Made by a program: the position numbers and the translations under genes. The notes beneath the pieces were generated by a model. The model worked only from the letters and a program-made list of their open reading frames with translations, ran no database searches and was not told the origin of the DNA. A stretch of DNA of 64,000 nucleotides. It comes from Mastigias papua (lineage: Eukaryota > Cnidaria > Scyphozoa > Rhizostomeae > Mastigiidae). Below are positions 1 through 61,249 of this stretch, one piece after another. The stretch covers positions 8,112,028 to 8,176,027 of the forward strand of contig OZ025278.1 in NCBI GenBank assembly GCA_964019165.1. Direction: 5' to 3'. Within the stretch, counting starts at the first letter, position 1. Every line of letters begins with the position of its first letter.

Positions 1-102
1 ACGTACGCAATTCAAGGAATCGATTAAATGTTATCCAAAATAAATACCTTTCTGTAATCTGCAATGGATTTCTTTATGATATTTGTTTCTGGCAATGAAA
101 TA
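1..102. other. Left-edge intronic DNA
   Basis: No gene is visible. By position this is the intron downstream of KLHL exon 2, since the Kelch domain is unfinished at 4967 and its remaining exons must lie beyond the left edge. A TA dinucleotide at 101-102 is the target duplication of the element that starts at 103. Confidence 0.5.
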
Positions 103-182
103 CAATGCCTGCCAAAAGTCTTGGAACACTTGCTATGATTTACGCTATGGATGAGCTATAGCATCCCCTGCCCGTTAAACTA

Positions 183-458
183 CAATCAATGCCAAAAGTC
201 TTGGAACACTTACGGCATTTTTTGACCTTGCTGGTGAGCGTTCCCCTCTCCCCTTTAAAACAATGTTGATTTAGACAGGTTTTATACGCAATAAATAAGT
301 CGAATTGCTTTCACACAACTGTCAGCTACCCCAACCGTCAATTCAACATTGTTCTGGGGGGTAGGGGGGCGTAGTCCGTTGTGCTTCACCGGAATCTCAT
401 AATTGTCATATAAAATGCTGTATTCATAGGGTTTTCCAAGGACTTTTGGCAGTGATTG
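183..458 (+). repeat. Left terminal MITE copy of the composite element
   Basis: This 276-bp copy has its own terminal inverted repeats (CAATCAATGCC at the left, GGCAGTGATTG at the right) and recurs in direct orientation at 4433-4708 with only a handful of substitutions. Its outer border is TA; its inner border is TC. Confidence 0.85.
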
Positions 459-750
459 TCTGAGACAGATACTGCCCATGCACTAGTATGACAATAAAAT
501 ATATATGTATCATAGGGTTTTCCATGGTCCTGATTCCAATGAAAATATTTTCAAATCGATATCTCTAATGGTTTTGTCAGGAGGCAAGGTGGGATACCCG
601 AAAAGGTAGTATTTTCACTCTGCCAGAAAAACAATATGTCTTGCAAAAGAACATAAGGTTCTACGTCATATTTTCTGGCATGGATTGAAAAGGAGGTTGT
701 ATGCTATGAAAACAGAACACTGAGGTAAGACGTAGTATTTAGAGTATTGA

Positions 751-2067
751 ATGATATCCACTAGAAAGGTCGAAATGGAAGGGTCTACGTTAAGTAATCC
801 TAGCGAAGCGATAGGACCTAGAGATGTGAGGAAAGCTTACTTGATAACCTACAGCAATGCTAATACTGAATTGTACGATAGGGAGAAATTTGCAACTATC
901 ATCACTACAGCATTTGAAGCGTGCATTAGAGGATCTACGGTTACGCAATGGGCATGCTGCCTGGAACAGCATAAGAATGGTAGATATCATTTCCACATGT
1001 GTGTTCTCTTAAACAAATTGCAACGCTGGTTGAAGGTAAAAAATTATGTAAAAGATAAATACGGCATTGTCCTCCACTTTTCTGGCCATGGTGGTTACCA
1101 AACAGCGTTCAGTTATGTCAAAAAGGATGATAAGGAGTATATAACTAGCAATAATCACCCTGTGAATGTCCCATCTCCAAAACCAAAGAGTGCTACTACC
1201 AAAGGCACTTCTCGTCAACAGAAAAAGTCAAAAGTCAAGCGACTGTCTAATCTTGATGTTAGCAATATTGTGCTAAAGCACAAACTTCGCTCAAGAATAG
1301 ATCTATTGGCATTTGCAAAATGTAGATGTGATGCGGGTGATAAACGACTATACGAGTTCGTATTGAACAGGGGTGACAAAAAGTTCAAAGACCTGATTTA
1401 TCTAGTGTGGGAGATGGAGACCGCCAAAGAAAAACAAGAGCGAAGTAAACTCACAAGATTAGATATTTTAAGGCAGCAGGTCAATATCCAGTGCATTTGC
1501 AATGGCCAATGGCTGGATTGTGCACTTGACATTCTAGACAGAAATGCCATCGATAGGGTGGTATTTGCTGATGCTATTGTCACATTGCTAGTTTTAGGCC
1601 GTGGCAAGGGTCGGAAAGTGTATATCACTGGTCCTGCAAACTGTGGGGACACATTTATACTTGATCCACTGAGAGTAATATTTAATACATTCCTGTCTCC
1701 TGCAACTTGCTCGTATGCATGGCTGGGGGTTGAAGAAAAGGAAGTCATTTTTCTGAATGATGTCAGGTGGTCACCCCTCATACTTCCGTGGAGCGATATG
1801 CTACTGCTATTGGAAGGCCATGTCGTCCACTTTGCAGCACCAAAAACGAGCTACAGCAAAGACATCGAATTTTCCAGTGACACACCAATTTTTGCCACAG
1901 CAAAGGCACCAATCTCCTTCATAAAAGGTTCCTTTATAGACGATCGTGAAACTGAAATGATGTATGTACGATGGCGCTTCTTTTCTTTTAAATATCAGTT
2001 CCAGCCACAGGAGCAAAAACCTGTCCCACCATGCGGTCATTGTTGTGCAAAGATGTTGTTGCAATAA
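751..2067 (+). CDS. Rep protein: HUH endonuclease plus SF3-type helicase (CRESS-DNA-virus-like, endogenous)
   Basis: An uninterrupted 438-residue frame. Rolling-circle endonuclease motifs appear in order: motif 1 around residues 29-36 (AYLITYSN), the HUH-type pair H80-F81-H82, and Y122 in YVKK as the candidate nicking tyrosine. A lysine-rich linker (about 143-165) leads to an SF3/AAA-like helicase half: Walker A at 294-302 (GPANCGDTF), Walker B around 332-337 (VIFLND), and a motif-C-like PIFATAK at 379-385. The C-terminus has a CxxCC cluster (428-432). The Walker A lysine is replaced by Asp300, so ATP hydrolysis is probably lost while nicking residues remain. Reps of this type start rolling-circle replication by nicking single-stranded origins next to iterons. 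A second possible start is Met9. It may be a captured viral gene or a long-domesticated transposon gene; the sequence alone does not decide. Confidence 0.85.
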   Translation: MISTRKVEMEGSTLSNPSEAIGPRDVRKAYLITYSNANTELYDREKFATIITTAFEACIRGSTVTQWACCLEQHKNGRYHFHMCVLLNKLQRWLKVKNYVKDKYGIVLHFSGHGGYQTAFSYVKKDDKEYITSNNHPVNVPSPKPKSATTKGTSRQQKKSKVKRLSNLDVSNIVLKHKLRSRIDLLAFAKCRCDAGDKRLYEFVLNRGDKKFKDLIYLVWEMETAKEKQERSKLTRLDILRQQVNIQCICNGQWLDCALDILDRNAIDRVVFADAIVTLLVLGRGKGRKVYITGPANCGDTFILDPLRVIFNTFLSPATCSYAWLGVEEKEVIFLNDVRWSPLILPWSDMLLLLEGHVVHFAAPKTSYSKDIEFSSDTPIFATAKAPISFIKGSFIDDRETEMMYVRWRFFSFKYQFQPQEQKPVPPCGHCCAKMLLQ

Positions 2068-2163
2068 TGGACATAGGCACGTCACTTTGTAAACAATATT
2101 GTTCCTGCGTAGCGTTGACAAACTGCAGTGTCATTGTAATGGTAGTGAAAGTGCAATTTGCCC

Positions 2164-2555
2164 ACGGTTTACCATTTCTATTTTCCCTTCTATCCTTTAC
2201 TGGTATTAGGTATCCAAGAGTAAATAATGTTAAAAGTGGTACATCGATAAGTACCTTCATGAGATGACAGTAAAATACATGTCTATTATTCGTATCTTAG
2301 TGAAATCGATGAAATAGCCACGGTTTACCATTTTACGCAGATAAACATGAATAGGATCGAAGTCAGATTTCAAAAAATGGTAAACCGTGCAGTTTTTCTC
2401 GTTTTTCTCAGAAACTCTAGAGCAGACTTATTCAAAACTATAGACAACAGTAGTTTGTGTTCATTTACCACTTTTCCCAAGCTTGTAGCAATATTGAAGA
2501 CTTCCTTCCTATTTTAGAAGGAAAAATACAATGGTAAACCGTGATGGTAAACCGT
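2164..2555. promoter_or_regulatory. Iteron-like cluster downstream of rep, with a stem-loop
   Basis: Five exact copies of the 12-mer ACGGTTTACCAT or its complement lie in 392 bp: 2164-2175 and 2320-2331 in one orientation, and 2377-2388, 2531-2542 and 2544-2555 in the other. The last two are in tandem with a 13-bp period. The second and third form a 16-bp perfect inverted repeat (2319-2334 with 2374-2389) around a 39-nt loop. Repeated short sites beside a Rep gene are what Rep-binding iterons look like, so this is a candidate replication origin. No canonical CRESS nonanucleotide was recognised in the loop, so the nick site is not assigned. Confidence 0.55.
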
Positions 2556-2871
2556 AGGAAAATACCATTTGATATGCAATCCAATTCAATGGGGGTTTTA
2601 AATACATTGAGTTTCATGCTTAAAAGGTGTAAAGCCGCAGTTTCTGTTATGAAAAAGTTTAGCATCGGGTGGTTTAAGCCCACATGAGAGTAACCTTTTT
2701 AATTCTCTCATAATTCCATCATCTCCTTTCATGAGTCAAAGAGCGACTGGTATTCATTCAGGACACCTTGAAGGAATAAAGACAAGGAACAATTCGCTGT
2801 AATATTGTATAATTAATTGCTGAAATATTCATCGACAAGCTATATCATTATTGCAAATAATTTCAATGAAC

Positions 2872-3947
2872 TCAATATTTAGTTCTATATCCACCAGACT
2901 TCGCAATTCTCTGTAGGCGAAGGGTCATTGTCTCTATAGTGCGGTCAATAACAGACCCATCATACTGGAGAGGTGTACTCAAGACCCTTTGTTTAAATGA
3001 TTCAAAGTCCTCCCTGACAATTTTTCGCTTTAGTGCATCTTCCCTAAGACTACGCTTAATATTATGAAAGATATTTTCTATAGGATTTAAGTCTGGTGAT
3101 CTAGCTGGTATTTCTACAAGTTCAGGACCTATTTCCTGCAATGCATCTTTCGCTACCATACTTCTTTGGCTTGGGTCGTTATCCATATCAAGCAGTAATT
3201 TCTCATTGCGTTTTAGCACTGCACAATCCATTAAGACCTTCTGTAGAGTTGCTTGCACGAACTTGGCAAACCAAGGTCCGTTCATCTCATATTCTTCTGC
3301 AAGAAACACTCCTGTTGAATGTGAGATACCCACCAAAAGATGCAACGAATGTCCCCCTGGTAGATTTTTTTATCCCTTACTCGTGTATTTCAGTCCTTCA
3401 TTGCTTTTCCTCCAGACTTTTCCATTAGCACATAACGCATCTTCGTATGGCTTGTGATTGTGCCTAAAAGAGACACCGTCCAAATACAGAAGAACGTCGT
3501 CTGTCCAAAAGTGTGTATCATAGTTTTTTAGAGCTGTTTTTGCGTACCGCACTCTGCATTGCTGTCATTTGGTGAGAGTATACCTTTTTTTCTGGATCTC
3601 AAAAAGTGGTACCCAGCATCATTTAACGTACGTATAAGAGTTCTATAGCTGATGCTTGTGATTTCACAATCTTTTGCGACGTCCTCGACTCTGACGTTCG
3701 GGCTCTCATCTCTCATTTTGCGGAATGTTCGAATAAATCTGGCATTGACTTCCTTGGTCATCAATGGTGGTCGACCAGTTCTCTTCTTAGTAAGTTGGCT
3801 AGAAAAGCCCTCCCGACATATCCTCAGAGCACTTGATGGTGAGATACCACAGCGTCGAGCAATCTCCCTGTACGACACAGACGACTCTCGTCTACGGTAG
3901 CAGATATACGCTCTAAGTTTCGTATTAATTCTTGCTTGAAATACCAT
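2872..3947 (-). pseudogene. Tc1/mariner DD34E transposase, broken
   Basis: Reading leftward from 3947: an N-terminal double helix-turn-helix region (SYREIARRCGISPSSALRI, then a basic GRPP hook and a second HTH), followed by the DDE catalytic domain. Catalytic landmarks are YLDG in the first strand, the DNDP aspartate, and NPIEN, with 34 residues between the second Asp and the Glu (DD34E). The frame is interrupted by a shift near 3540-3550 and an in-frame TAA at 3370-3372; after that stop the frame continues to 2872. This enzyme family cuts at TA dinucleotides, which matches the TA duplications of the surrounding element. It faces the rep gene across the iteron cluster. It is inactive as read, unless the breaks are sequencing errors. 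Confidence 0.85.
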
Positions 3948-4432
3948 TTTGTCTCAGCTATTCTCACGTGTGGCGCAGATGAGTATTAAATATATGAAAT
4001 CTTGCCTTAGATTCCCCCATTTGCCACTTAAATCGTTTCAATTGACCATATTGGACGGACAGGAAATTAGTCGTTTTGAATAGAAACTGTATGCCATATG
4101 AGCAACATTTGTCATGTATTCAAGAGTTTCCTGCTACCAATATTTGTTTACTACGTATTAATCACTAGTTTTTATTGCACGAATGCTCGATACTGACAAG
4201 AACTGAGACAAAGAAAGACATTTATTGGGACTACGAAACACCTGCAACTTTTAGAATAATACAGCTAAATTATCAACTCATGATGCAGAATACTATGAAC
4301 CCCTTTAATTCTGGACTTTCCCCCCAATTAATGTAATTTTAGATGGCACAACTGAACTCAGCGCTATGGAAAACACCTACCCCCTACCAACTATTTCCCG
4401 TACATCTTACTGTCTTACAGATTTCCCTCAGA
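3948..4432. other. Interior of composite element, no gene
   Basis: No supported coding region. The stretch runs from the transposase 5' end to the right MITE copy and ends CTCAGA, complementary to the TCTGAG at the opposite end of the interior. Confidence 0.5.
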
Positions 4433-4708
4433 CAATCAATGCCAAAAGTCTTGGAACACTTACGGCATTTTTTGACCTTGCTGGTGAGCGTTCCCCTCTC
4501 CCCTTTAAAACAATGTTGATTTAGACAGGTTTAATACGCAATAAATAAGTCGACTTGCTTTCACACAACTGTCAGCTAACCCAACCGTCAATTCAACATT
4601 GTTCTGGGGGGTAGCGGGGCGTAGTCCGTTGTGCTTCACCGGAATCTCATAATTGTCAGATAAAACGCTGTATTCATAGGGTGTTCCAAGGACTTTTGGC
4701 AGTGATTG
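4433..4708 (+). repeat. Right terminal MITE copy of the composite element
   Basis: A direct-orientation partner of 183-458, with the same internal inverted repeats. It is followed by TA (4709-4710) and then by the resumed outer MITE. Confidence 0.85.
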
Positions 4709-4966
4709 TATGTTGTATGAAGCAAATATGGGCAACTCGAAGGCCAAAAGTGATGCGTGTTTTCAAAGCTACTGGTCTCCGCTATCGAATCAACATTGTT
4801 TCAGGGGGGAGGGGGTCTACATTTTAAGTGGTGTTAAGGAGAAGCGGCAGGAGTCGGAAATCAGTACAATTGTGTGGGTGTTCCAACTACTTTTGGCAGG
4901 CATTATAGCTATGAAAAGACATCTTACTGAATGAGATGAAACAGCAATATTATAGGAGAATAATAC

Positions 4967-5907
4967 CTGCAAGCTGATTCTCTTTCCCCTGATCCTCCAG
5001 CAATATATAAAATCTTGTTAGCAACTGCTGCTTTTACATCACCTCTACATCTCAATGGGGGTGGCAATGTTGTCCATCTACTGGTTTCCGCATCATAGCA
5101 TTTTGCACTGCGTAATTTGACACCTCGTCTCATACCCCCAATCAAATATAATTTTCTGTCAATTACTGCAGCTGCGAATGAGGAGCGTGGACTTCTAAGA
5201 GGCTTTGAAAGCTCCCATGATCCAACAGAATGATTAAACAATTCTATGTCACTTATTTCACTCAGAAATGATTGCTCGCCACCAATAACATACAGCCATT
5301 GCCCATACGATTTTCTAACTTCCACTTCAAGAGTTTTGCACTTCCTGATACTGTATGGTTTTAGCGAAGACACCTGTTTTCTTGGCGGTAGAATGCACTT
5401 TTTCTTGTCATAATTTTCATAGATAAAGTCAAGTCTTTTCGGCGCAATAAACGGGAACTGAACAAACCGGAATAACTCCCTCTTGTACCGCATTCTCTTT
5501 GGATAATCATGACTCAACCAATGTAATGAAGCAATCAATACATCTCCCTCATCTTGAACACATAGATCACCATTGCGCAATAGATTCCTTACAAAATCAA
5601 ACTGCAAATGCTGAAAGGTATTGGAAGCTATAATGGTCTTGAAATGGTTTTTGAAAAATGAAAGTACTGCTGACAAAAGCAGCTGGCAAGAATACCTATC
5701 TGCCAGATGATACACATCAAAGCAATTTAACTCATCTATTTGTTTGGAGATAAAATCACTACAGTAGTCTTTAACTTTGTCAAACTGCAGAAGATCTGAT
5801 GCTTGGAGCAATGACTGAACATTACCATTACCGATCTCCAACATGCCTGTGTATGCATAGCTGATAAGACTTCTCACAGCCTCTATCTCCAGATCTTTCA
5901 GCTCAAT
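4967..5907 (-). CDS. Kelch-like (KLHL) protein, exon 2: end of BTB, BACK and first Kelch repeats
   Basis: The exon is 941 nt. The acceptor reads ATTTTCTAG before 5907 and the donor reads GTATTA after 4967, leaving phase 2. The encoded 313 residues complete the BTB fold (IELKDLEIEA, then YAYTG), continue through a BACK domain (roughly residues 40-150 of the exon) and enter a Kelch propeller with three GG doublets (VIGGEQ, LIGGM, IAGGSG). KLHL proteins are usually substrate adaptors of Cullin-3 ubiquitin ligases: BTB and BACK bind CUL3 and the propeller binds the substrate. Only about half of a six-blade propeller is present, so further exons lie left of the window. The phase-0 junction joins exactly to exon 1 at 35021. 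Which KLHL orthologue this is cannot be told from the window. Confidence 0.9.
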
Positions 5908-6615
5908 CTAGAAAATGTACAAGTCTCCAAGGTTATATTACAGTTTCCAATATTCAATCAGAGAAACATTTAGTGCTAAATCCACCATGTCATACTAATC
6001 CACTCTAGCATTGCTAATACGTGTTGAATCCATACGCTAAGTTTGAATCTTATTGACTATTCATCATTTGAACAGAAACTTATCTTAGACGGCAGTTCTA
6101 ATGAATAGAGAAGATCGCTATTGCAAGCTACAATGAAACGGTGAATTGTTAATGGTAACATTAGATGGACTTCTAGAAAGGAGGTGAAATTTTCGGCTGA
6201 CTGAAGGAAACAAAGCCAGTGATAATCAGCAAGTCAACTCACTGATGGAATTATTCGAGTTATTGATGAAAAAAGAAAGGAAGCAATATGCAATACCCTT
6301 GAAAGTTTAGTGAAGGTCTATACATTTGAAAACAAAAAAGAAGGCAGTTAGACAGTGGTCAAAACCGAGGCCAAACCTATCAAAACAATTCAAAAATCAG
6401 TTGATTTGAAGCGATTGTCATCATCTCACTCTGCAACAACTGAAGATTACCGTTTCTCATCATCTGCAATACCCTGATTATGTCCTATTTCCCTCTTTCT
6501 TGCACAATGGTGGGTATTTGTATAAAACTGTTTGTCATTCAGATATTTCTCAAACAATTCCATGTCTTGACTCCTAATCAGTCAACTTCAGTCCTCATCC
6601 GACAGAGAATTTACC
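5908..6615. other. Intronic stretch, no feature seen
   Basis: AT-rich unique-looking sequence directly upstream of KLHL exon 2. No coding frame, RNA gene or repeat could be supported. Confidence 0.4.
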
Positions 6616-6741
6616 TTTTGGAGCAAATCATTAGTGCCCTGTGAACTAAGGTTTTGATAAGGCTAATTTTCTTGATTTTGGCCTTATCAATTAGCCTTAT
6701 CAAAACCTTAGTTCACAGGGCACTAATGATTTGCTCCAAAA
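6616..6741. repeat. Perfect 53-bp inverted repeat (hairpin), 20-nt loop
   Basis: Arm 6616-6668 is the exact reverse complement of 6689-6741; the loop is 6669-6688. The arms begin TTTTGGAGCAAATCATTAG. No target duplication is evident. The transcript could fold into a long double-stranded hairpin from inside KLHL intron 1. It may be a small fold-back element, a small-RNA precursor, or a duplication artefact. Confidence 0.8.
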
Positions 6742-7563
6742 CTAAATTAGGCTCAGAGCTTGATAGAGTAGAATTTACCTTCTTAAGCTTTCTAAACATA
6801 TTTGCAGCCTAAGCCTCTAACTTAGATCGAAAAATCATCACAGCCTACTAAATCATCATTCTAAATTAACTGAAACTACTGCTTCTCAATCTTCACATTC
6901 CTGTTTGGCAGGCTTTCAACAAAATGTTCCCTAAAAGCCAACGAGCCAGTCGAATAGGTAGCAGTACACACTTGTGGTATCATTACCATATTTCCTCTAG
7001 AATATCGTAGCGTATTTCCTAAACCATAACATCTCGTTGCCGTGGACATCAGGAGCATGTTTATCAAAAAATAAAACATGAGATCAAACAGCAAAGAGTA
7101 ATGCATTCTTTTCTCAAAAAAATAACAACCAAAAGTTATAGATATGAGAGGTTGGAACGCAAGTAAATGGATAAGCATGCGATTGGGTGTACAAGAAAAT
7201 GGCAGAAAGAAACATTTTAATGGGAGATTTGTCCATAGAACTGTCAAAGCTCGTAGAATTCTTTATTGAAAATGAGTATAATATGCGTAAACTGTCTGAT
7301 ATGTCTTGCTTCGCTGGTTTCTAATAAACGCCACCTTTCAAGTGCTATTATTAGAGTGAGGAGGTCAGTAAAGGGCAGTGCATAATACGAATGTTTGGGA
7401 AAACGTACAGCATTAATATCAGAGGGCAACGTTTCTTCAAGGAAATACAGTGATAGTGGGCCTAATTTTAGATTATATATTAACTCCTATCGTCCGAAGA
7501 TATTCCACAAAAAAGGGTGGGAGGGTGTTCACAAAGATCTTTAAGATGGACAAGGATGTCACC
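6742..7563. other. Intronic stretch, no feature seen
   Basis: No supported gene. The open frames here are short and resemble no family known to me. Confidence 0.4.
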
Positions 7564-7784
7564 TACCTTTCCTGTCAAAAGTCTTGGAACCCTTGATATG
7601 ATTTACGATATTGAAGAGCTATAGCATCCTTTCCCCCAATTACCCAATAGAGCGTTTCCGAAACACAACAGGGCGCGCTACTTCGCCTCAGTGAAGACCA
7701 GGCTCTAACGCGGTTATGGTGATATTACGACCGATGAGGTGTAGTAGGCATTTTCACTACATACACATTCGCTCGTGGCAAGTC

Positions 7785-8180
7785 GTAGTCGTCGGATGTG
7801 CAGTTTAGGGTAACAGTCAAATAGCCTTAATTTTTATGCGAAATTACTCCTTACGATTAGTAGAGTCGAAACAGACCTTAAAAAGTGCGGCACTACATGC
7901 CAATTACTTAGGATTCGGGTCTGGGTCAGGGTTAGGGTTTTGTGTAGGACAAGGGTCAGGATCAGGGTTATTAGTTGTAGAATAGGCGGAAGGTTCTTAA
8001 TGGGCACATGGATTTCAATGTTCATTGAGGCATAAATAGGAGTAAATAAGTAGTTGGTCAGCATTGCCGTACTTTGTTTCGTCTGTTTCAACTCTATTCA
8101 TCGTAAGGAGTACCTTCGTCAAGAATTTAAGGCGACTTGGCTGTTACCCTGAGCTGAACATCCACCCCGTAGTCATATAG
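7785..8180. repeat. MITE-like inverted-repeat element inside the Harbinger
   Basis: An imperfect inverted repeat pairs 7796-7865 with about 8098-8165; the shared blocks include AGGGTAACAG and ACTCCTTACGAT. No open frame of note and no secure target duplication, so the borders are approximate. Confidence 0.45.
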
Positions 8181-8227
8181 AGTTTCCAAAGGTAACATTT
8201 TCTGTTTTTTTCTGATTATGTAATATC

Positions 8228-8753
8228 GTGTTGATTTTAATTATCGAGTTGATGTCTGGTTCTTGCATAAGATACAAAGCAACCACAGAGGAGATTGTGG
8301 AGTGGGAAAAGAGTGGGGAAGAAAATCAGAAGAGAAATCAAGAGTCAAGACAGAAAGTGCAGAAGCAAAAGGTGACAGAAGAGCTTGCTAGAAAAAGGGC
8401 CATCGAGACCATGTCTCAAAAACTCAGGCTTGGTAGGGGGAAGAAAGGGAAAAATTACGTCAGGTTGAGTCAGGTGATTACCTTAAATGCTTCAGAGAAA
8501 AAGCTGCTGCAAAAAGAAAGTGAAAGAGGATAAATTAGAATTGAAGAAGAGAACAACTGATGTAGACGAGAAACGAGTTGTCGTGGATATCCAGTTATGG
8601 GAAAAAGATTTGGAGTTGAGGGAGAGGGAGATAGAGTTGAAAGAGAATATGAAAATAAAAGGAGAGATGGCTGTTTTCAGGGCAAAATTTGACTTGATGC
8701 AGCAAAAAGCAAATGAAAATGAAGAATACAACAAATACACTATTCACCTTTAA
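8228..8753 (+). pseudogene. Harbinger accessory (Myb-like partner) protein, C-terminal coiled coil, frameshifted
   Basis: Two overlapping frames (8228-8533 and 8487-8753) together read as a strongly charged coiled coil rich in E, K, R and Q (for example VEKERE-like stretches ending LRERELELKENMK-type heptads). In PIF/Harbinger elements the transposase works with a Myb/SANT DNA-binding partner whose C-terminus is such a coiled coil. The N-terminal SANT fold is not recognisable here, probably lost with the 5' part next to the nested MITE. One frameshift near 8490-8530 separates the halves. The assignment rests mostly on composition and on the neighbouring transposase fragment. Confidence 0.45.
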
Positions 8754-9119
8754 AGCCAAAAATAAAAATAATTAGTTGCCTTTGCGATGAGGTTTTTGTT
8801 CAAATTTCCTGGAATGTTATTGCTTTTAAAGTTTTGAGACTTCACTGTTTCCCGCGTGCATGCTATAGAATAACAATCGAATAATAAACAAACTTAGCAT
8901 CAATGCACTTGACACATAGTAATTGTTTGTCTGTTAAATACAAAGCTTGAGAACAACCTTACTTCAAATTACTATGATGTTTGTCTGTATGTCCCACCTT
9001 CACAGAAGACAAAAATGTCTATGTGCTTTGAAAAAGCTGTTTAACAAAGTAGCATTAAAGAAACTACTGCCTCAAAGTAGCTTCGAAGAAATCTGTCTCA
9101 GTAATTTGTGTTATTATTC

Positions 9120-9344
9120 TCAGCCAAAGTATACTTTCAAAGATGGTGGCTGAACATTGAAAAATATATCTAGTTTCTCGAAACGAAAGTCGAGTTTGCT
9201 TTCATCGTCCAGCATTGTTTTAATATTGAATCTTTCATATTTCCAATATGGAAGTCCTTCCTCCACAACCGGCACCCTGAAGTACCAAAAACTCGCTATC
9301 GTTAATTTCGCCACCATCGTGTAACAGAGCAAGGAGGTTTCCAT
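9120..9344 (-). pseudogene. PIF/Harbinger transposase, N-terminal fragment
   Basis: The 74-residue frame contains ERFNIKTMLDDESKLDFRF followed by EKLDIFF. This is the N-terminal pattern that precedes the nuclease domain in Harbinger transposases (an acidic turn, then F-R-F-x-K-x-D-I). Homology ends near 9150, and none of the catalytic DDE strands follow, so the rest of the gene has been deleted. It lies opposite in strand to the accessory frame, a common arrangement in this superfamily. Confidence 0.6.
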
Positions 9345-9448
9345 CCATTGTTACACGAATTTAATAATCGCGGCTTTTCTGAGGTGTTGTCGTATTCGCA
9401 AAGTTAATTTTTCTCCTGAGCTGCTACGACGCAGATGGGAAGTACTTA

Positions 9449-9820
9449 AGGAGCGGTCATAAAGTATCTGCCACATGGGGGTTGATGATTTTTTAAAAAT
9501 TTACCAAACTAATTAATGGCCCATCCTAGATTTCTATATAATTTTTTTTGGCTCAATAGCAAACTCGGGATATTTTTATGACCCCATAAAACATTCTTTG
9601 CAGAAAGCACTACCATACTGTAGCCTGTCCACATCAGCTGGAGTGTGCAACTTAGCTGTCCATGCTTATGATTTAGAAAATGGAATATTTTTTTGTTAAA
9701 TTTTCTATGGTCCCATGAAATTGGCTTGATCTTTTCTGTAGCCCAAAAAAGGTGCTAAATTCTTTATGCCCATCCAAATATCACCCACCCCCCTACAGCA
9801 GATACTATATGACTGCTCCC
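9449..9820. repeat. Nested MITE with TTA target duplication
   Basis: A 372-bp element flanked by TTA (9446-9448 and 9821-9823). The terminal inverted repeats of roughly 40 bp are imperfect and share GAGC-GTCAT-AGTATCTGC. Non-coding; the TTA duplication suggests it was moved by a Harbinger-type transposase. Confidence 0.6.
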
Positions 9821-10063
9821 TTAGTCTCCCCTGAGACGAAGCCGCGCGTAGTGAAGTGTTTCGGAAACTTTCTCGAGTTATATGAAGCAATTATGAGCAA
9901 CCAGAAGGGTAAAGGTGACATGTCTAGAAAGCTACGGGTTTTCGCTATCAAATTAACATTGAATAGCCTAACGGGGAAGGGGGGTTTACATTTTAAATGG
10001 TGTCAGGAGAAGCGGAAATTCATATAACTATGTGGGTATTACGTCTAATTAGGCAGGCATTAT

Positions 10064-11660
10064 CTGAAACTCATATTTAAGAAGGTGATGGATCATACTA
10101 ATAAGTTTTTGAGAGTACCAATTTCATTTCTAACAGAATCAGCATCATATTTCCATGGAGTAATCAGTTTTTGTATTAATTTTATTCCTCTATATAGTGA
10201 GTATCGGATGAAAATTCAGCAAAAGTCTAGAAATTTCAACTATAGTACAAACAATGTCAAAATAATTGAAATGCACTGCGATGCTCTTCATTGTATTAGC
10301 ATGTGTCCCACCTATGGGGAGCAAGCTTAGATACACATCAGAGGAAATAACTTGGACGGCTTTGTATTATAGGGGTATGCAAAATTATGTGCAATGAAGC
10401 ACATTACTAGTACAGGTTATATAGGATTAACTGACGACAAGAACACTTTATTCTATATCTAACATCAGGCACGGCGCTGCCAAATAAAAAGTGGAGGCTA
10501 CACAAAAAGAGGGGACGACAAACAACAAATTTCCTGATAAAGGCTAGAAAATGTACTGGCTGGCAAAAAGTGGGGACTGAGGCCCCCCAGCACACTACCG
10601 ACGTTGTGCCTGATCACTAAAATTATGTAGGGAGTTTCAGGTTTGCAACTTTTGGGCTAACACAACTGCCTTCTACAAAACAACCTCAGCTGCATCAATT
10701 GGAAGCTAAACCTGTCCTCTCATGAGATGGGTGCTAGATGCTGAACTGCTACAAACTTCAACATTGATATTCTTCCACTTTTTTCAAATTGTAACAGCTA
10801 AGAGAGTTCTACAAGTAAGTGTATAAGACTATGTCAGAGCAGTGCTATTCAATGAGCCTTGTGTATGAAGCAGCACAAAGCCGGCAGTTATCATTTCCAT
10901 TTTGCGTGCTAATAGAGAGGGCACAATGATACTCCTATCTTTCCCACATCAAAAGCCCAAATATCACTCCATTACTTACAGTTGGGAAATTGAAATCATT
11001 ATTGTTGCTGGCAAATTTATCAATTGCAGTCATGAAGTTGATATTCAATGCCTGACAGCAGTTATATCCTGTGAATATTGTTATGAAACATTGCAACCAA
11101 AATAACTATCCAATCAACTCCACCCCTTATAGTAAGCATTATTACCGCAACAAATTTTCCCAAATATTGTCATTTATATGCTCGCATGTGAATGTTTTGC
11201 ATTCCCTGCAGAATAAAGAGCATTGTCGGTAAAAAGAACAATTATCTTCACGGTCCACAGTTTTGTGAAAACTAGATATGACCAAGCATCATGTATTTCA
11301 CAAAATTATAGACCGTTGACGTTTTCAGATCAACTCTACGCAATCTCCTTTGGGCGATATACTGGCCAAGAGAACTTTCCTGCCCATAGTTCTCAATAGC
11401 AAAATCTCTATCAAAAGATTTATATTAATGTTCCAAAGTTTGCAGACCATTATGTCAGTAGCCTTGATACGACAATAAAGAAGGGACATTAAATTTACAA
11501 ATCGTGTCTGCTATGCCCGTACACTGGGTTCCTTCTAAGAACGGCATATACTATGCACAAGGAACGGCGGAGCAAAGCAATCCCGTCATTATAGACATAC
11601 CATGTATATGAATATAAATATTAACATATGTATCAACATAAATATATATATGTATATCAC
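10064..11660. other. Intronic stretch with one dispersed-repeat fragment
   Basis: No gene supported. Sequence around 10466-10610 (CAGGCACGGCGCTGCCAAA and following) recurs in inverse orientation near 34440-34535, so it is a fragment of a dispersed repeat of unknown class. Confidence 0.4.
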
Positions 11661-11679
11661 AAAAAAACGGTACCATGTT

Positions 11680-11865
11680 TTAACCATACTGAAAAGCTTA
11701 TTTTCGTGCGATACTCGTCAGAGTTTGAAACGTCGGATGGCGACCGAAAGGTGAACCGAAATTTATAGCCAGATGCGGGTAAACGTGATATGATGAATAA
11801 TGTGTCCAGTTAGCCATATGATTGGCCACTTGGCACCTATTCACAATTGTTTACTAGAAGAGTCC
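11680..11865 (-). repeat. Penelope-type pLTR, inverted copy
   Basis: The reverse complement of this stretch matches 12990-13190 and part of 12262-12400. Shared blocks include ACATGGTACC, CTCTGACGAG and CATATCACGT. Inverted and partly duplicated terminal repeats are typical of Penelope-like elements. Confidence 0.6.
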
Positions 11866-11869
11866 AAGT

Positions 11870-12260
11870 GAGAAAATGAACTCTTTTTGTTTACACAAGA
11901 CTGGGTTTTCAGTCTTTATGTAAACTGATTCCAAACCACTTAAATGAAAGGACGATCTTGCTTGCCCTATGATCCGAAAATTATCGTCTGAATATGTCTT
12001 GGCGCATTCTGGGTTTTTAATGAGATGTTGTCCTATGGCCGAATCACTTTTCATTTTCGAATTAGTGTTTTTACACATACTAGGTGGCTGTTCCCTTATT
12101 GTAGTGTTTTTTCCTGATGCTCGTGGGTATGTTGTTTTATTCTGTCAGCTAGTCTCTGTGTAGTGCGTCCTACGTACCGAGCTTCACATCGGCACGAAAA
12201 TTCATAAGCTACACAACTTTTTTGAGTGGTAGGAACGCTATCTTTTTTAGCAGATGGTAG
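11870..12260 (-). pseudogene. Penelope-like element, GIY-YIG endonuclease end of the polyprotein
   Basis: Reading leftward, the sequence shows a CxC-containing start, [17 protein letters not shown] (a GIY-YIG core of the Penelope kind) and then, after a frameshift near 12080-12096, SAIGQHLI and SGLESVYIK. Penelope-like retroelements use a reverse transcriptase fused to this nuclease, which nicks target DNA to prime copying. No reverse transcriptase remains here; the frame runs into a pLTR on the right. This is the 3' coding end of a dead copy. Confidence 0.75.
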
Positions 12261-21863: not shown

Positions 21864-24035
21864 TTGTCCTCTGAGAAAATATCTATTATTCCATTCAAGC
21901 GTTGCCCTTTCCTTCGTTCATATATCACGGCTGTTTTCAACATTATTAGGCTCTCAGGGGAAATCCCCTCTGAATGGAAACGAGCGTGTACGGTACTTGC
22001 ACACAAAAAGGGTGATACCTCTGACCCTGCAAATTTTAGGCCAATAACGCTTGAAAGTGTTCCTCTGAAGATCTTTTCATCATGCTTGCGTGACTCAATA
22101 TTTGCCTATGTAAAGGCAAATGGTTTTATTGAACATCAGATTCAGAAAGGTTTTCTTCCTAAATTAACAGGTACCTTCGAACACACTGCCCAAATGGCTA
22201 ACGTCATAAGCACAACTAGAATTAAACAAAAGTCACTTGTCATCACATTACTAGACCTCAAAAATGCGTTTGGTGAAGTGCACCATAACCTAATTCCGGC
22301 AGTTCTTAGATATCATCATATTCCTGATCACATACAACTTCTAATTCGCAGCCTATACTCGAGTTTCCAGACTTCCATTATCACTGACTCCTTTCAGACA
22401 CCTTCTATTAAAATGGGCCGCGGTGTTCTCCAGGGTGATTGCTTGAGTCCATTAACTTTCAATTTGTGTTTTAATACTTTCATCCATTATATCTCTGAAC
22501 AAAAGTTCAAACAATTTAGATTTAGTACAAGTTCCCTTCTCCCTATCCACTGGTTTCAATTTGCTGATGATGCTGCTGTTATAACTGGCCCGGAAAACGA
22601 GAATCAAATTCTTCTAAATCACTTTACTAGATGGTGTACCTGGGCTAATATGATAATCAGGGTTGATAAATGCTCAACATTTGTGATTCGGAAGTCATCT
22701 ACCGCATCCATTCAATATCTCCCAAAATTGTTGATTAACCAGTTTCCTGTCCCTACTGATGCTGTTGGTAACTCATTTAAATATCTAGGTCGCTATTTCA
22801 ATTTTTCAATGGATACCATTGATCATATGTCTGAGGTATTACAGCTGATCACTCGCTTGATGCGAAAAATTGATGAAATTCCTTGTCATCCGAAAAACAA
22901 ATTGTTGTTATATCATCGGTTTGTTCTTTCCAAGATATCATGGCATTTTACTATTGCAGATCTTGGTAAGACATGGGTTTCTGAGAATATCGATAATCTC
23001 GTCTCTAAATATATTTGCCAGTGGCTTGAGCTTCCGATCTGTGCCACCCTTAGTACTCTTGTTTTATCAAAATCGAAATATGGTTTAAGCCTCATTCTTC
23101 CATCCACAAAATTTGCTCAATGCCAAGTAGTTATGAGAAATGCACTTAAGTCATCTCCAGACACTGATATAAATGCTCTTTGGTCCCTGACTAGCTCTGG
23201 CTGCAATATACAATATGATCAATATCGCAATACAAAACAAGTTTTAACTGCTATTCGAAATGACAATGAAGATCGTATCTGTCATGAACTAAAGTCACAA
23301 GGCTTCATCCTTTTCTCTATACTCCTTCAAGGCAGTAAGCATACTCGTCATCTTTGGACGAAGGTTCATTGCAATATGCCTAGAAATATCTTTAACTTTA
23401 TAGTTAAGTATATCAATAATACTCTTCCTACTAAGAAGAATCTATGCAAATGGTCCCCCTCCCCCACATCTGCATGCTCTTTCTGCTTCCAATCTGAGAC
23501 TCTTCAACATGTTGTTTCCAGTTGCAAATCCTATCTTCAAGATGGTAGATATACCTGGCGTCATAATTCCGTCCTTTTACATCTTGCGAAAACTCTCTCA
23601 TCAGTAGTCAATAGCACATTATATGCAGATCTTCCCTTTTTTCCATCTCCTTCTTTGATAACTGGTGATTCTCTTCGTCCATACCTAGTCTTGGTAAGTA
23701 ACAGTTCATGCGTTTACCTGCTAGAAGTCACTGTTGGCTTTGAATCAAATATACAGATAAATAGTGACCGTAAGGCTACTAAATATCTCCCTCTTATTGC
23801 TGACCTCCAAAATTCTTATTCTACTGTGAAACTTATAAATCTCTCCATGAGTGCTCTCGGAATACTTGGAACGTCTTCTGAGTCCTTTCCATCAATGCTC
23901 AGAGACTTAAACTTCGATGATACTACCAAACATAAAATCCTGTCTAAAACAATTAATATTGCAGTACGATGTACTTATTATATCTTCTGTAGACGAAATA
24001 AACATTGGACTAACCCTAATTTACAGGACTATTGA
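21864..24035 (+). CDS. R2-type LINE reverse transcriptase and endonuclease (copy 2)
   Basis: A 723-residue open frame. The order is fingers (CTVLAHKKGDTSDPANFRPI), motif A (LLDLKNAFGEVHH), motif B (GVLQGDCLSPLTFN), motif C (FADDAAVITG), thumb, CCHC knuckle (CSFCFQSETLQHVVSSC) and the RLE domain. In the nuclease the expected RPD is RPY (LRPYLVLV), while copy 1 next door has RPD; EVTVGFE is kept. So the first-strand chemistry looks sound but target nicking is probably dead. Upstream frameshifts also disconnect it from its zinc fingers. Confidence 0.85.
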   Translation: MSSEKISIIPFKRCPFLRSYITAVFNIIRLSGEIPSEWKRACTVLAHKKGDTSDPANFRPITLESVPLKIFSSCLRDSIFAYVKANGFIEHQIQKGFLPKLTGTFEHTAQMANVISTTRIKQKSLVITLLDLKNAFGEVHHNLIPAVLRYHHIPDHIQLLIRSLYSSFQTSIITDSFQTPSIKMGRGVLQGDCLSPLTFNLCFNTFIHYISEQKFKQFRFSTSSLLPIHWFQFADDAAVITGPENENQILLNHFTRWCTWANMIIRVDKCSTFVIRKSSTASIQYLPKLLINQFPVPTDAVGNSFKYLGRYFNFSMDTIDHMSEVLQLITRLMRKIDEIPCHPKNKLLLYHRFVLSKISWHFTIADLGKTWVSENIDNLVSKYICQWLELPICATLSTLVLSKSKYGLSLILPSTKFAQCQVVMRNALKSSPDTDINALWSLTSSGCNIQYDQYRNTKQVLTAIRNDNEDRICHELKSQGFILFSILLQGSKHTRHLWTKVHCNMPRNIFNFIVKYINNTLPTKKNLCKWSPSPTSACSFCFQSETLQHVVSSCKSYLQDGRYTWRHNSVLLHLAKTLSSVVNSTLYADLPFFPSPSLITGDSLRPYLVLVSNSSCVYLLEVTVGFESNIQINSDRKATKYLPLIADLQNSYSTVKLINLSMSALGILGTSSESFPSMLRDLNFDDTTKHKILSKTINIAVRCTYYIFCRRNKHWTNPNLQDY

Positions 24036-38853: not shown

Positions 38854-38880
38854 TGAAAAGTGAAAGTGCGAGAAAATAAC

Positions 38881-38953
38881 CGACCCGAGCGGGATTCGAA
38901 CTCGCGACCCATGACTTTGTACGTCGGTGCTCTACCAACTGAGCTATCGGGCC
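38881..38953 (-). tRNA. tRNA-like sequence (left arm), probably SINE-related or a pseudogene
   Basis: 73 nt with a 7-bp acceptor (GGCCCGA with TCGGGTC), D arm, box A TAGCTCAGTTGG and box B AGTTCGAATCC. The anticodon loop read by position is GTACAAA, giving anticodon ACA. The anticodon stem has two mismatches (27-43 and 28-42) and the T stem has one, which argues against a functional tRNA. Confidence 0.5.
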
Positions 38954-39072
38954 ACGCTTCCAAATCGTTGCTCAAGGGTAGGTCATTTGCTCGCACCGCC
39001 CCTCTCTTAACCAATTTAAGAGAGGGGCGGTGCGAGCAAATGACCTACCCTTGAGCAACGATTTGGAAGCGT

Positions 39073-39145
39073 GGCCCGATAGCTCAGTTGGTAGAGCACC
39101 GACGTGCAAAGTCATGGGTCGCGAGTTCGAATCCCGCTCGGGTCG
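39073..39145 (+). tRNA. tRNA-like sequence (right arm), GCA anticodon by position
   Basis: Same as the left copy except for the anticodon loop GTGCAAA (anticodon GCA, the cysteine anticodon). The same stem mismatches are present. It diverges from its partner head-to-head, with about 119 bp between the 5' ends. Confidence 0.5.
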
Positions 39146-39172
39146 GTTATTTTCTCGCACTTTCACTTTTCA

Positions 39173-44488: not shown

Positions 44489-47404
44489 TTATAAATACCC
44501 TAATCCATAAATAAAAGTCTTGCAGATCCTACAGTTGCAATGTCTGCTTTTCTCTGATTTCAGATATTTTCTAAAAACTGTCAAAGAGCTGGAAGCTTTT
44601 AATTCTACTGGCAATTTTGCCCACGCTCTTTGACCCATGAACCGTCCTGTATCTGTACCATAGTTTGTAGTTCTCACTTTAGGTAGATTTACTTTACTCG
44701 TGCTTCTTAGCTGATACGGCACTTCCTTTTTGCCAAAAATTTCTATCATAAACGGAGGATTCAACCGATTTTTGGTTTTGTAAGTCTCAATCATCAGCAA
44801 CTGTAGGTTCTTCTGATGAACAGATACCGAATTATCTTTTTCTAACAGCTCTTTAAATTGAGAAGTGTTATCTCTGTATGCGATTCTAAGAGCCCTCTCC
44901 TTTTTTTTATTTATTTTGTTTTCAATCTTCCTATCATGGAACATCCATATCAGAGGGCAATAGCTGAAATGTGACAATATCAAGGTATTCATCATCAATT
45001 TTATCTTTTTTGAATCCATGAAAATCGAAATTCTAGATAATGCGTGCAGCTTCTGGCTTGCTTTTCTGCAAAGTGATTGCACATGACTTTTGAAACTAAG
45101 CTTTGTATCTAGCGTTATCCCTAGCAATGTTTCTTCATCACTTTCTTCTATTACAGCCTCTCCAAAATGTATTTTCATCTTTTTACTTTTTTCACCAAAT
45201 ATCATAAGATGACATTTATCTGCATTCAATTTCATATAATTTTCAGAATACCAGGTTGCTAACTGAGCAGCATCTTGCTCTAAGCCATCTATGACACATT
45301 CAATCTTAGAGTCGCATACATAAATTGTCGTATCATCAGCGTAGTTGCATATTTCGGATCTGTTCAACAGAAGAAACAAATCATTAAAAACAATGTTAAA
45401 AAGCAAAGGTCCTAAGACGGATCCCTGTGGGACTCCTTTGTTAACTTCCTTCCATGTGCTAAATGAACCATTTATTTTAACTCTTTGTAGCCTTTTTCAC
45501 AAATAACTATGTATCATTTTAAGAGCATTTCTACTAAGGCCATAGCCATGCAATTTTGCTATTAAGAATTCAGGATCTATGCAGTCAAAGGCTTTAGAGA
45601 GATCCATCAATAGAGCTCCTGCGTAGCCGCTTTTATCCAAGGTCATTTTACAAGTTTCCAGAAATCTTAAAAGAGCATGCTGTGTATTATAGCCTTTTTT
45701 AAACGCGCAAAGTAGGGGAGACAAGGAGCTCACGGAGAATTCCATCAACTGGTCATATAACAGGCGTTCCAAAATTTTTGAAGTAGATGATAGGACAGTA
45801 ATTGGCCTATAATTCTTTTTGTTTAAGGCATCGTCCTTTTTGTAAAGCGAGGAGACATCCCCTTTTTTAAGTTCGTTTCGAAAGTAATTTTCTGCCAAGC
45901 ACAGGTTGAAAGTGTTAGTAAGATAAGGAAGACAAACATCCGAGCTTCCTTTCAGAATTTTGGCTGGAATGCTCTCTAGTGGTGTTGCTTTCTTTAGATC
46001 AAGTTTATCTAGTTGTTTGTATACTTCTTCCTTTGACACAAGTGCAAACTCGAACATCCTTGAAGGATTAAAGTTGTCTTTTATTCTTTTGACGCTTGGA
46101 TGTAAGCTGTATTTAGTAATCGCAACACCAATCGGATCCTTAATGCCATCAGTTGATAACAAGTTTAATTCAGCCCTTCCAACATCAATAGAACCCGTAA
46201 TGTTAACGAAGTATTCATTAAAAATCTCAGCGATAGCCTTATCATTAGATATAAATTGGCTACCTTCTGCCAAGGTGACACTAGATGATGTCTGGACTTT
46301 CCCGGATAAAATAGGCTTTACAGTTTTCCAAAATTTTCGATTGTCACTAAGATTCTTTAAATCTAGATTTTGATAATACTTGCACTTGGTCTTACGCAAA
46401 AGTTTAACACACCAGTTTCTTTGCTTCTTGAAAGCCCTTTCATTTTCTTCCGTCCTATTTTTATTGTATCTATTGCGCAACTTTGACGGCAACATAATGG
46501 CTTTCCTTTGTGCTTTTGTCACAAAAGGTCCGTCATTTGCTCTGACATATTTTCTCTTAATAGGCGCGTGTTCATTTAGCACATTTTTGACCACCGAGTC
46601 AAAAGTATTATAATTTATTTTATCCGCAGGGAGATGTTTTGAAAGTTCAATATGTACAACTATTCTAAAATTACTAATATTGAAATTTCGGTAGTCTCTG
46701 TAATTTATGAGTTTAGGACCTTTTTTTAAGAAACCACCTTTTAAAACAGTTATTATCATGCAATGAAAATCCGACAGTCCAGTTTCAATCGAGTCTGTGC
46801 ATTGAAAACTGGATGCTCTGTTGGTAAGTATTAAGTCAATCGATCTTGGTCTGTCGGATTTAAAGCACGTTGGCTTTTTCACTAAATTTTTCAAGTTATA
46901 TATTTCCAAGAAATTGCTTATGTCAGCTCCTTTTTCTTCCAGGTTGAAATCTCCCAGTAAGATGAGGTTTTCATACCCAGTACTATAGGCATCAAGCGAC
47001 TTTCCCAGTTCTTCAAAAAAGTATCTTCCGTTCTGAGAAGGAGGACGGTAAACATTTGCCAGAAGCCATTTTTTATTTTTTAGATTAATCTCCACAAAAC
47101 CACATTCTATATCCTCAGGGAGATTGTATGCTCTTAACTCCTTAGCTGGAACCTCCTCCCTAACATAAACTAAAATTCCACCGCCACTCTTATTTCTGTC
47201 ATATCTAAATGGAGGCTTGAAGCCTTCAAGGAAAAACTGGGCGGTTTTAAAGCTACTGTCAAGCTTTGTTTCAGCAATTGCTAAAATGTCTATGTTTTTA
47301 GAAATTAAACATTTCAAGGGCTCGAATTTGTTTCTTATGGAGTTAATATTCAAGTATGCTATGATTATCCCCTTGCGGTTTTTAATTTTCAAATCTTGTA
47401 GCAT
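44489..47404 (-). CDS. LINE ORF2: apurinic-type endonuclease and reverse transcriptase, one in-frame TGA
   Basis: A single frame of about 971 codons. The endonuclease is residues 1 to about 230 (IAYLNINSIRNK, AIAETKLD, LANVYRPP, LLGDFN, DLILTN, TGLSDFHCM). The reverse transcriptase has NYRPITVL, LMDLSKAFDCIDPEFLI, GVPQGSVLGPLLFN and YADDTTIYV. The C-terminal part has LLGITLDTKLSFKSHV and WAKLPVELK. An in-frame TGA at 45497-45499 lies just before the GVPQGS motif; the frame is open on both sides. ORF2 nicks the target and copies the LINE RNA onto it. Apart from this one codon the protein looks complete. Confidence 0.88.
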
Positions 47405-52997: not shown

Positions 52998-53680
52998 CGG
53001 ATCAGGGCTTAAATGTTGATGGACAGATAATGCAGGATGTATGTGCTTCTTTTGGGATCGAGAAACGGCGATCGTCAGCGTATCACAGTCAAGGAAACGG
53101 CTTTGCAGAGCGCAACATTCGGACCGTGAAAGATATGCTACGCTCTGTACTCCTCTACCGTCGTCTTAGTCAGTCTCGACGGCGGGAAATTTTGCCACAA
53201 TTGTTATTTGCACTGAATGCCAGCGAAAGCAAAGTTACCCGATGCACCCCGTTCGAAGTCGTATATGGTCGGCCCGCAGTATTACCTCAAGATATCATTT
53301 TCGATGTATTACAGCCCGATCCTCACGATACGTTATCAGCTGAATCTTATAGAGAAGAAGTAACTTCCGAACTGCAAGACATTTTTGAACAAATTGTGAA
53401 GACCTTAAAACCCAGCAAGGCGAAAATGCAACAACAATACAATCGCAATCTCCGCTTTACTAATTACATAGCAGGCCAGCAAGTGTGGTTAAGGAAAAAC
53501 ATTACAAGACCGGAGAAAACCGGAAATTAGCCCCTAGAGGTGAGGGTCCCTGGACAGTTCTTGAAAAACTTCCTAACGGGGTAAACTTTAAAATCATTAA
53601 CTCAAAGAAAGAAGAAAACATAGTACACCACGACCGACTTAGTCCAGTTCTTGGACACGCTAAATCAGATTCCCACTAAC
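52958..53680 (+). pseudogene. Gypsy 1 integrase core and C-terminus, frameshifted
   Basis: Continues pol in a second frame: LLTDQGLNVDG (second catalytic Asp), then YHSQGNGFAERNIRTVKDML (catalytic Glu), and TPFEVVYGRPA. A second shift near 53520 leads to the tail APRGEGPWTVLEKLPNGVNF and HHDRLSPV. After that a Ser/Asp/Glu-rich stretch reaches about 53924 without clear homology. Confidence 0.8.
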
Positions 53681-59769: not shown

Positions 59770-59831
59770 GGGAGCACACCACGAAGTATGACCATTAACT
59801 CAAGAAATTACTCCCATATCAAGCATTTTAT

Positions 59832-61238: not shown

Positions 61239-61249
61239 TTTGCACGCGG

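Follow-up and report, generated by a model that had tools for sequence, protein, structure and literature searches.

The window analysed here is the whole stretch of 64,000 nucleotides taken from contig OZ025278.1 of Mastigias papua. Near its left end lies a unit of 4,526 bp with two genes, one encoding a replication protein (Rep) and one encoding a Tc1-type transposase, both enclosed by foldback hairpins. The unit and its parts are:

183-4708: the unit, in the order hairpin, rep, repeat palindrome, Tc1 (DD34E) transposase, hairpin
181-182: TA, left copy of the unit's target duplication
183-458, plus strand: left terminal foldback hairpin, with the Tc1-like tips CAATCAATGCCAAAAGT.../...ACTTTTGGCAGTGATTG
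459-464, plus strand: junction between left hairpin and interior, TCTGAG, not TA
751-2067, plus strand: Rep, an open frame of 438 codons with an HUH endonuclease and a superfamily 3 (SF3) helicase
2149-2570: nested palindrome with five 12-bp repeats, at 2163, 2319, 2378, 2532 and 2545
2872-3947, minus strand: Tc1-type DD34E transposase, a pseudogene with one frameshift and one stop
4427-4432, plus strand: junction between right hairpin and interior, CTCAGA, the reverse complement of TCTGAG
4433-4708, plus strand: right terminal foldback hairpin, a direct repeat of the left hairpin
4709-4710: TA, right copy of the unit's target duplication

An earlier sequence-only reading of this DNA, made without database searches, had pointed to TA on both outer sides, an HUH-SF3 Rep frame, five 12-bp repeats and a DD34E transposase between the ends. 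All of these were found again. TA is exact at 181-182 and 4709-4710; the Rep frame is open (438 aa, with HFH and YxxK) and has lost its Walker A lysine; four of the repeats are exact and one has a single mismatch (2163-2556); and the transposase, which had never been called intact, is broken. The list of open reading frames (ORFs) of at least 150 aa contains no third frame in the unit beside Rep and the transposase piece, and hence no candidate of that size for a capsid protein (VP).

The Rep protein combines the motifs HFH and YxxK with an SF3-type helicase, which is the HUH-plus-SF3 composition of the parvovirus NS1/Rep proteins. Its Walker A motif reads GPANCGDT; the lysine is gone, though it is nearly invariant in the 35 members aligned. 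Among these members, Pfam (E 0.01) detected Parvo_NS1 in 15 and REP_ORF2-G2P in 26. Searching PHROGs and the Protein Data Bank (PDB) by sequence gave no convincing match. The predicted structural model (pLDDT 86.9) has as its best PDB match Rep68 of adeno-associated virus 2 (AAV2), over both domains, and its fold is also near B19 NS1, papillomavirus E1 and the Reps of circular Rep-encoding single-stranded (CRESS) DNA viruses. In the Rep tree, the window's protein belongs to a clade of 21 of the 60 rows (SH-aLRT 99).

Downstream of rep, the 12-bp repeats CACGGTTTACCA/TGGTAAACCGTG are arranged as two inverted pairs plus one extra copy and constitute the arms of the nested palindrome, whose fold has a z-score of -6.46 (0 of 100 shuffles as stable). 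Judged from its sequence, this array is a candidate Rep-binding region. Taken as a sequence pattern alone and not in a stem-loop context, NANTATTAY, the nonanucleotide pattern of CRESS-DNA virus origins, occurs in the unit at 3057 on the plus strand and at 2807 and 1683 on the minus strand; an Rfam scan of positions 1-12000 of the window gave 0 matches.

Two lesions interrupt the transposase, a frameshift at about 3560 and an in-frame stop codon at about 3371. Pfam (E 0.01) identified DDE_3 and HTH_Tnp_Tc3_2 in all 15 aligned relatives, in which D157, D257 and E292 never vary and 34 residues separate D257 from E292. The family therefore has the domains of Tc1/mariner transposases (DDE_3, Tc3-type HTH and D-D-34-E), although the frame is broken in the window copy, and its profile matches Sleeping Beauty with E 6e-13. 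In the protein search, 441 of 2,113 candidates matched the transposase at E 1e-10; among the 120 matches listed, full-length frames occur in relatives that are up to 92% identical, which means that apparently intact copies exist. In the tree, the window copy lies in a clade of 23 of the 57 rows (SH-aLRT 100).

The two hairpins (183-458 and 4433-4708) show 7 differences in 276 nt. In direct orientation 269 bases match, versus 182 in inverted orientation. Folded as DNA, the left end (183-459) reached -54.9 kcal/mol versus -27.7 (standard deviation 3.7) for shuffled sequences, a z-score of -7.36, and the right end with its junction (4427-4714) gave -7.37; in both cases 0 of 200 shuffles were as stable. 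Palindromic terminal hairpins of the parvovirus type are thus present, but in direct rather than inverted orientation. Each hairpin carries Tc1-like tips at both of its own ends, and the outermost tips of the unit are inverted repeats (181-200 versus 4691-4710; 20 nt, 95%, TA included), as is expected of Tc1/mariner terminal inverted repeats (TIRs). According to nhmmer, the hairpins found in the window are one family, which we split into two subfamilies.

At their inner borders, all four attached hairpins of the window have TCTGA: TCTGAG at the left end of the unit, TCTGAG at its right end when reversed, and TCTGAA at each of two related loci described below. The sole solo hairpin (one of one) ends in TA at the place where the attached ones have TCTGA. 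For these reasons we regard the hairpin as part of the element. The sequence-only reading had described the ends as same-orientation miniature inverted-repeat transposable elements (MITEs). The direct repetition stands, but the so-called "MITEs" are terminal hairpins belonging to the element itself, from which the solo MITEs were probably derived.

The unit itself is nested in an older solo foldback of the same family (103-4905), which consists of:

101-102: TA, left border of the older solo hairpin, with partner TA at 4906-4907
103-182, plus strand: older solo foldback (m56-type), left part (alignment with the relative at 56533-56282; nhmmer)
4711-4905, plus strand: older solo foldback, right part (nhmmer and alignment)

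On the minus strand, 56533-56282 is an uninterrupted relative of this host foldback with 87% identity. The joined flanks, 103-182 and 4711-4905, align with it continuously and end to end across the insertion point. Because the flanks form one continuous foldback, the unit must have entered whole or have grown at one TA site. Note that the uninterrupted relative has AA at the point where TA flanks the unit; the TA before insertion is consequently a reconstruction and was not read from an allele. TA on both sides is the target-site pattern of Tc1/mariner elements and fits a single Tc1-type insertion of the whole unit.

Two decayed relatives of the element occur in the window, locus B at about 56.5-54.7 kb and locus C at 7.6-11.5 kb:

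56282-56533, minus strand: locus B hairpin (fold z-score -8.57, 0 of 200 shuffles as stable), with TA outside (56534-56535) and TCTGAA inside (56276-56281)
55205-55591, minus strand: locus B Rep remnant, N- and C-terminal pieces with an internal deletion (tblastn, profile search)
54724-55113, minus strand: locus B 3' repeats, four AACGGTCTACAC copies
7566-10062, plus strand: locus C hairpin, divided by another insertion into 7566-7637 and 9877-10062
10859-11093, plus strand: locus C Rep remnant (tblastn, profile search)

At all three Rep loci of the window, a hairpin lies 5' of Rep in the same orientation. Its inner end is 0.3 kb away from the Rep start in the unit, and 0.7 kb (B) or 0.8 kb (C) away from the first Rep piece; the inner junction of the locus C hairpin is TCTGAA, too. 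The Rep of locus C has the same internal deletion as that of B, while B's first N-terminal piece is absent in C. Taken alone, the Rep remnants are weak in the profile search (best domains 1.3e-06 and 0.00048 in B; 0.033, 0.034 and 0.82 in C). B and C share 71-75% identity across their four longest aligned pieces (blastn), from the hairpin through the leader and the deleted Rep to the 3' region. Upstream of the two loci, the flanks show no relationship (best local score 111 versus a mean of 129 for 50 shuffles). These relatives indicate that the folded ends and rep belong together, so that a chance pile-up is unlikely. As a statement on anatomy, the earlier claim of one hybrid element is supported, since hairpin and Rep recur at B and C with unrelated upstream flanks and the array is recognisable in one of them. 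The sequence-only reading had also asked whether other rep copies lie outside MITE pairs. For the two remnants examined in the window the answer is divided: both have a same-orientation hairpin, but a second hairpin was found in neither and the full pair is not reproduced. Because a deletion lies inside Rep and the shared sequence stops before the position of the transposase, B and C may be deletion derivatives.

Two further observations concern these loci. The blastn homology of B and C ends in both just past the last 3' repeat (window positions 54720 and 11455); if the repeat array were a right end common to both, this would be unusual in an element derived from Tc1. A separate insertion (7649-9873), bounded by imperfect terminal inverted repeats about 50 bp long (GTTTCCGAAACAC...), divides the locus C hairpin; its insertion point is near position ~80 of the hairpin, as is the point where the unit split the solo hairpin 103-4905.

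The repeat array can be followed into locus B, which has four copies of AACGGTCTACAC within 1 mismatch; for this motif, derived from locus B itself, 200 shuffles (at most 2 mismatches) contained 0.035 copies on average and never more than 1. Aligning the non-coding array regions of the unit and locus B resulted in a score of 75, which was reached by 0 of 200 shuffles (maximum 53). The repeats of the two loci are in register and differ in sequence. To judge from this comparison, the repeats may have kept their place and changed sequence together, as expected of binding sites tracking their protein. The folds of the array regions are weaker in the relatives (z-score -2.56 in B, -3.95 in C).

Relatives of both genes were compared in a protein collection which reports only the longest contig per cluster, unnamed; equal size was taken as the same contig. 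A contig is given for 118 of the 120 listed Rep rows and for 119 of the 120 listed transposase rows. Among the matches listed, the exact sizes common to Rep and transposase rows are 4,497, 6,982, 740,876, 1,663,187 and 2,053 bp; the short shared contigs are those of 4,497 bp (P0007/P0131) and 6,982 bp (P0004/P0129). For the close clade, represented by hand-picked lists (21 of 118 Rep rows, 28 of 119 transposase rows), there are 4 exact size matches, while 2,000 size shifts averaged 0.01 and never exceeded 1. These contig sizes support a Rep-transposase pairing in the close clade. The matches at 2,053 bp (P0075/P0219) and 2,691 bp (P0274/P0188), the latter being the only size match from 79 further Rep rows, were taken as chance, as both genes would not fit. 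Listed contigs accumulate at 1.5-2.5 kb (Rep 41 of 197, transposase 27 of 119) and at 3.6-4.8 kb (Rep 47 of 197, transposase 23 of 119) and are sparse at 3.0-3.6 kb (Rep 13, transposase 2) and 4.8-6.0 kb (Rep 6, transposase 1). The pile at 3.6-4.8 kb would be expected from units measuring about 4 kb.

A larger group of Reps (P0020-P0120, P0241-P0319) comprises 638 profile hits, Acropora included. Many of its listed contigs measure 3.6-4.8 kb, and no transposase partner is among the matches listed. In a collection of genome contigs, 147 stretches encode a transposase relative, and 79 loci, mostly partial matches, were kept; this collection gave no Rep relative. At transposase locus L001, no obvious Rep was seen by eye among the listed ORFs of at least 100 aa, no Rep search having been made there.

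On the whole, the unit is probably a decayed copy of a composite mobile element which unites a replicon resembling those of single-stranded DNA viruses with a Tc1 transposon. The anatomy that speaks for it consists of TA on both sides, one family of hairpins, a conserved junction, a link of hairpin and Rep at three loci and an array at two. Several findings weigh against this interpretation. The unit copy looks dead, its Rep being without the Walker A lysine and its transposase frame being broken by a frameshift and a stop. The window Rep scores 24.5 bits against REP_ORF2-G2P, under the Pfam cut-off of 27.8. Among predicted viral structures its top match is papillomavirus E1, and in that comparison CRESS Reps rank among the parvovirus NS1 proteins; "AAV-like" accordingly refers to fold and not to descent. 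Within the window searches, loci B and C have no transposase, and a right hairpin was detected in neither. The array of locus C shows no significant likeness to that of the unit (score 47, reached by 2 of 200 shuffles), C being too decayed to show it, and the leaders between hairpin and Rep are unlike (33 of 200 and 106 of 200 shuffles reach the scores). The left hairpins of the unit, B and C all have the same orientation, which does not favour free flip/flop; a circle or concatemer would account for it no less well.

Further reservations concern the partnership of the two genes, which outside the window was read by proxy from equal-sized contigs, so that contig identity is deduced from size. 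With all listed rows, 4 matches of at least 3,600 bp compare with a shifted mean of 0.58 and a maximum of 3 (120 shifts); two of these four are megabase-scale contigs (740,876 and 1,663,187 bp), on which the two genes need not be adjacent; and among the matches listed, none of the 79 further Rep rows matches a transposase contig fitting both genes. Taken over all these comparisons, the partnership is supported for the close clade only. Over five pairs, including the megabase contigs, the identities of Rep and transposase are uncorrelated (r -0.07 or -0.39; 54 of 120 and 112 of 120 permutations did as well). Co-divergence is consequently not supported, and the argument for partnership rests on the two short contigs.

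We infer every catalytic step by which such a composite element would move. The transposase would recognise and cut the outermost hairpin tips and move the whole unit into a TA; if it acted on the two tips of a single hairpin, the products would be TA-flanked solo hairpins, i.e. MITEs. Rep would bind the repeat array and nick either near the TCTGA junction of hairpin and interior or in the array, and its SF3 domain would unwind the DNA. In this way, Rep could amplify excised or replicating copies as circles or as hairpin-ended linear molecules. The intermediate would possess one hairpin, flanked by CTCAGA...TCTGAG, in a circle, or would be a dimer. The double-D circles of AAV are circular forms comparable to the proposed one-hairpin circle. 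If a donor with one CTCAGA...TCTGAG-flanked hairpin were cut from a dimer or concatemer at the distal tips, terminal direct repeats would result, with TCTGAG/CTCAGA inside and TA outside, and the transposase would then paste this two-hairpin piece into a TA. A more far-reaching proposal is an animal transposon class with two engines, in which an AAV-like Rep amplifies the excised element and a Tc1 transposase reinserts it at TA, the same transposase moving single hairpins; we make it tentatively, as a possibility that is somewhat doubtful.

Among the alternatives, the one that survives best makes the transposase a passenger: a hairpin-ended Rep element, i.e. a parvovirus-like transposon, would have received an ordinary Tc1 insertion later, in the copy represented by the unit. 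It would account for loci B and C, which have hairpin and Rep without transposase, and for the 79 further Rep rows mentioned above, which have no equal-sized transposase contig fitting both genes. However, the transposase is not bracketed by TIRs of its own, as a comparison of 2061-2900 with 3901-4445 gave at most 10 bp exact, or 11 nt with one mismatch. Moreover, relatives of Rep and transposase lie on equal-sized contigs (4,497 and 6,982 bp), and B and C may have lost the transposase as deletion derivatives, their shared sequence ending before its position. We consider a passenger transposase unlikely.

A second possibility is that homologous recombination brought a circular replicon with one CTCAGA...TCTGAG-flanked hairpin into a resident TA-flanked solo hairpin, the transposase having made solo hairpins only. 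The unit, with TA outside, TCTGAG/CTCAGA inside and direct repeats, looks exactly like the product of a single crossover. Cutting of a dimer yields the identical structure, though, and sequence alone does not separate the two routes; the Tc1 transposase in the interior is left unexplained by recombination, which we judge quite unlikely. Third, the unit could be a defective endogenous virus, parvovirus-like or CRESS-like, without a transposon life, whose copies stem from infection. The nearness of the Rep fold to AAV2 Rep68, B19 NS1, papillomavirus E1 and CRESS Reps, the terminal hairpins as in parvoviruses and the occurrence of some relatives on contigs of about 4 kb would agree with such an origin. 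This explanation is nonetheless very unlikely: the unit contains no capsid candidate of at least 150 aa, TA on both sides and a Tc1 transposase speak for transposition, and neither protein scans nor a DNA-pattern scan found a relative in a viral contig collection, from which records near the window's genome may be missing. Finally, a Rep fragment caught between two independent MITE insertions, the alternative kept by the sequence-only reading, is extremely improbable and was rejected: such hairpins are common, with four hairpin loci in the 64 kb besides the unit's right end, but at neither inner border is there a TA. With so few differences between the two hairpins (7 in 276 sites), it would be an unlikely accident for both TA sites to have given way to one and the same symmetrical sequence, and the hairpin/TCTGA junction recurs at B and C, two loci that correspond to each other in hairpin, leader, Rep and 3' region.

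The surroundings of the unit are animal-type eukaryotic DNA. A BTB-BACK-kelch frame of 317 aa, identified by Pfam (4924-5877, minus strand), directly adjoins the nested insertions. By eye, the ORF list shows gypsy-like pol and gag frames at 50661-53530 (plus strand) and 57386-61310 (minus strand) and non-LTR (long terminal repeat) reverse-transcriptase frames at 21864-24035 and 44489-47404. Two tRNA-Cys-like genes with the anticodons aca and gca (38880-39146) are located on opposite strands, divergent and 117 bp apart.

Several known systems share parts of the composite element's anatomy. AAV and other parvoviruses have, like the unit, a Rep with HUH and SF3 domains and palindromic terminal hairpins; their genomes of 4-5 kb are similar in size to the unit, and a short junction lies next to each hairpin, also as in the unit. 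With Tc1/mariner elements and MITEs the unit has in common the DD34E transposase, the TA duplication and the Tc1-like tips, and it differs from them by the extra gene Rep, the internal repeat palindrome, the long foldback ends in direct orientation and its 4.5 kb. Tc1/mariner elements have a single gene and about 1.3-2.5 kb, which does not agree with the 4,526 bp and the second gene of the unit. Helitrons and Replitrons are eukaryotic transposons with an HUH enzyme, as is found in the unit. In Helitrons, HUH is fused to a superfamily 1 (SF1) helicase of the Pif1 type, and there is neither a target-site duplication (TSD) nor a TIR; the unit, in contrast, has inverted tips, and it differs from Helitrons and Replitrons by an SF3 instead of an SF1 helicase and by the presence of a DDE transposase and a TA duplication.

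Closest in gene content is a geminivirus-like transposon of Tuber melanosporum, for which a Rep-like ORF, two transposase ORFs, TIRs of 37 bp and no obvious TSD were reported (Liu et al. 2011, PMC3198968). An element with Rep plus transposase is thus an already known kind. This transposon, a repetitive element with terminal inverted repeats, unites a Rep-like ORF and transposase ORFs; both kinds of gene lie in our unit as well, and judged by equal size their relatives share two short contigs, of 4,497 and 6,982 bp. As far as the accessible part of that article goes, the differences are as follows: its Rep is geminivirus-like, whereas the solved structure closest to the unit's Rep fold is AAV Rep68; the family of its two transposase ORFs is not named there, whereas the unit has one Tc1 DD34E transposase; and 37-bp TIRs without obvious TSD contrast with 276-nt foldbacks and a TA duplication. 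Parvovirus-like repeats of lower animals, namely PIVE, DENSOV_HM and an acorn-worm element (Liu et al. 2011, PMC3198968), and an endogenous densovirus of Echinococcus with an inverted terminal repeat (ITR) of 370 nt (PMC6880638) resemble the unit in having Parvo_NS1 or PPV_E1_C helicases in repeated genomic elements and long foldback ITRs. Unlike in the unit, a transposase is unmentioned in the accessible parts of these sources; in the main text of PMC6880638, the words "transposase" and "mariner" have 0 occurrences. In the open-access literature (Repbase and subscription journals being outside this scope), we found no element with an AAV-like Rep, foldback ends and a Tc1 transposase, and the accessible parts of PMC10175614 and PMC6668415 do not mention a Rep-plus-Tc1 element with hairpin ends.

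The anatomical evidence thus points, in an animal-type genome, to a parvovirus-like replication module with hairpin ends fused to a cut-and-paste transposon, and public data contain relatives whose genes appear intact. Were the two-engine reading true, the terminal hairpins or the repeat array would be the origin of replication, and one excision could seed many insertions. The foldback MITE family would then be explained as solo terminal hairpins, a solo-end by-product of a virus-like transposon just as solo LTRs are of LTR elements. Peel-and-amplify combined with paste-at-TA would join the known ways by which DNA transposons raise their copy number, and it would offer a route for single-stranded DNA viruses to become transposons.

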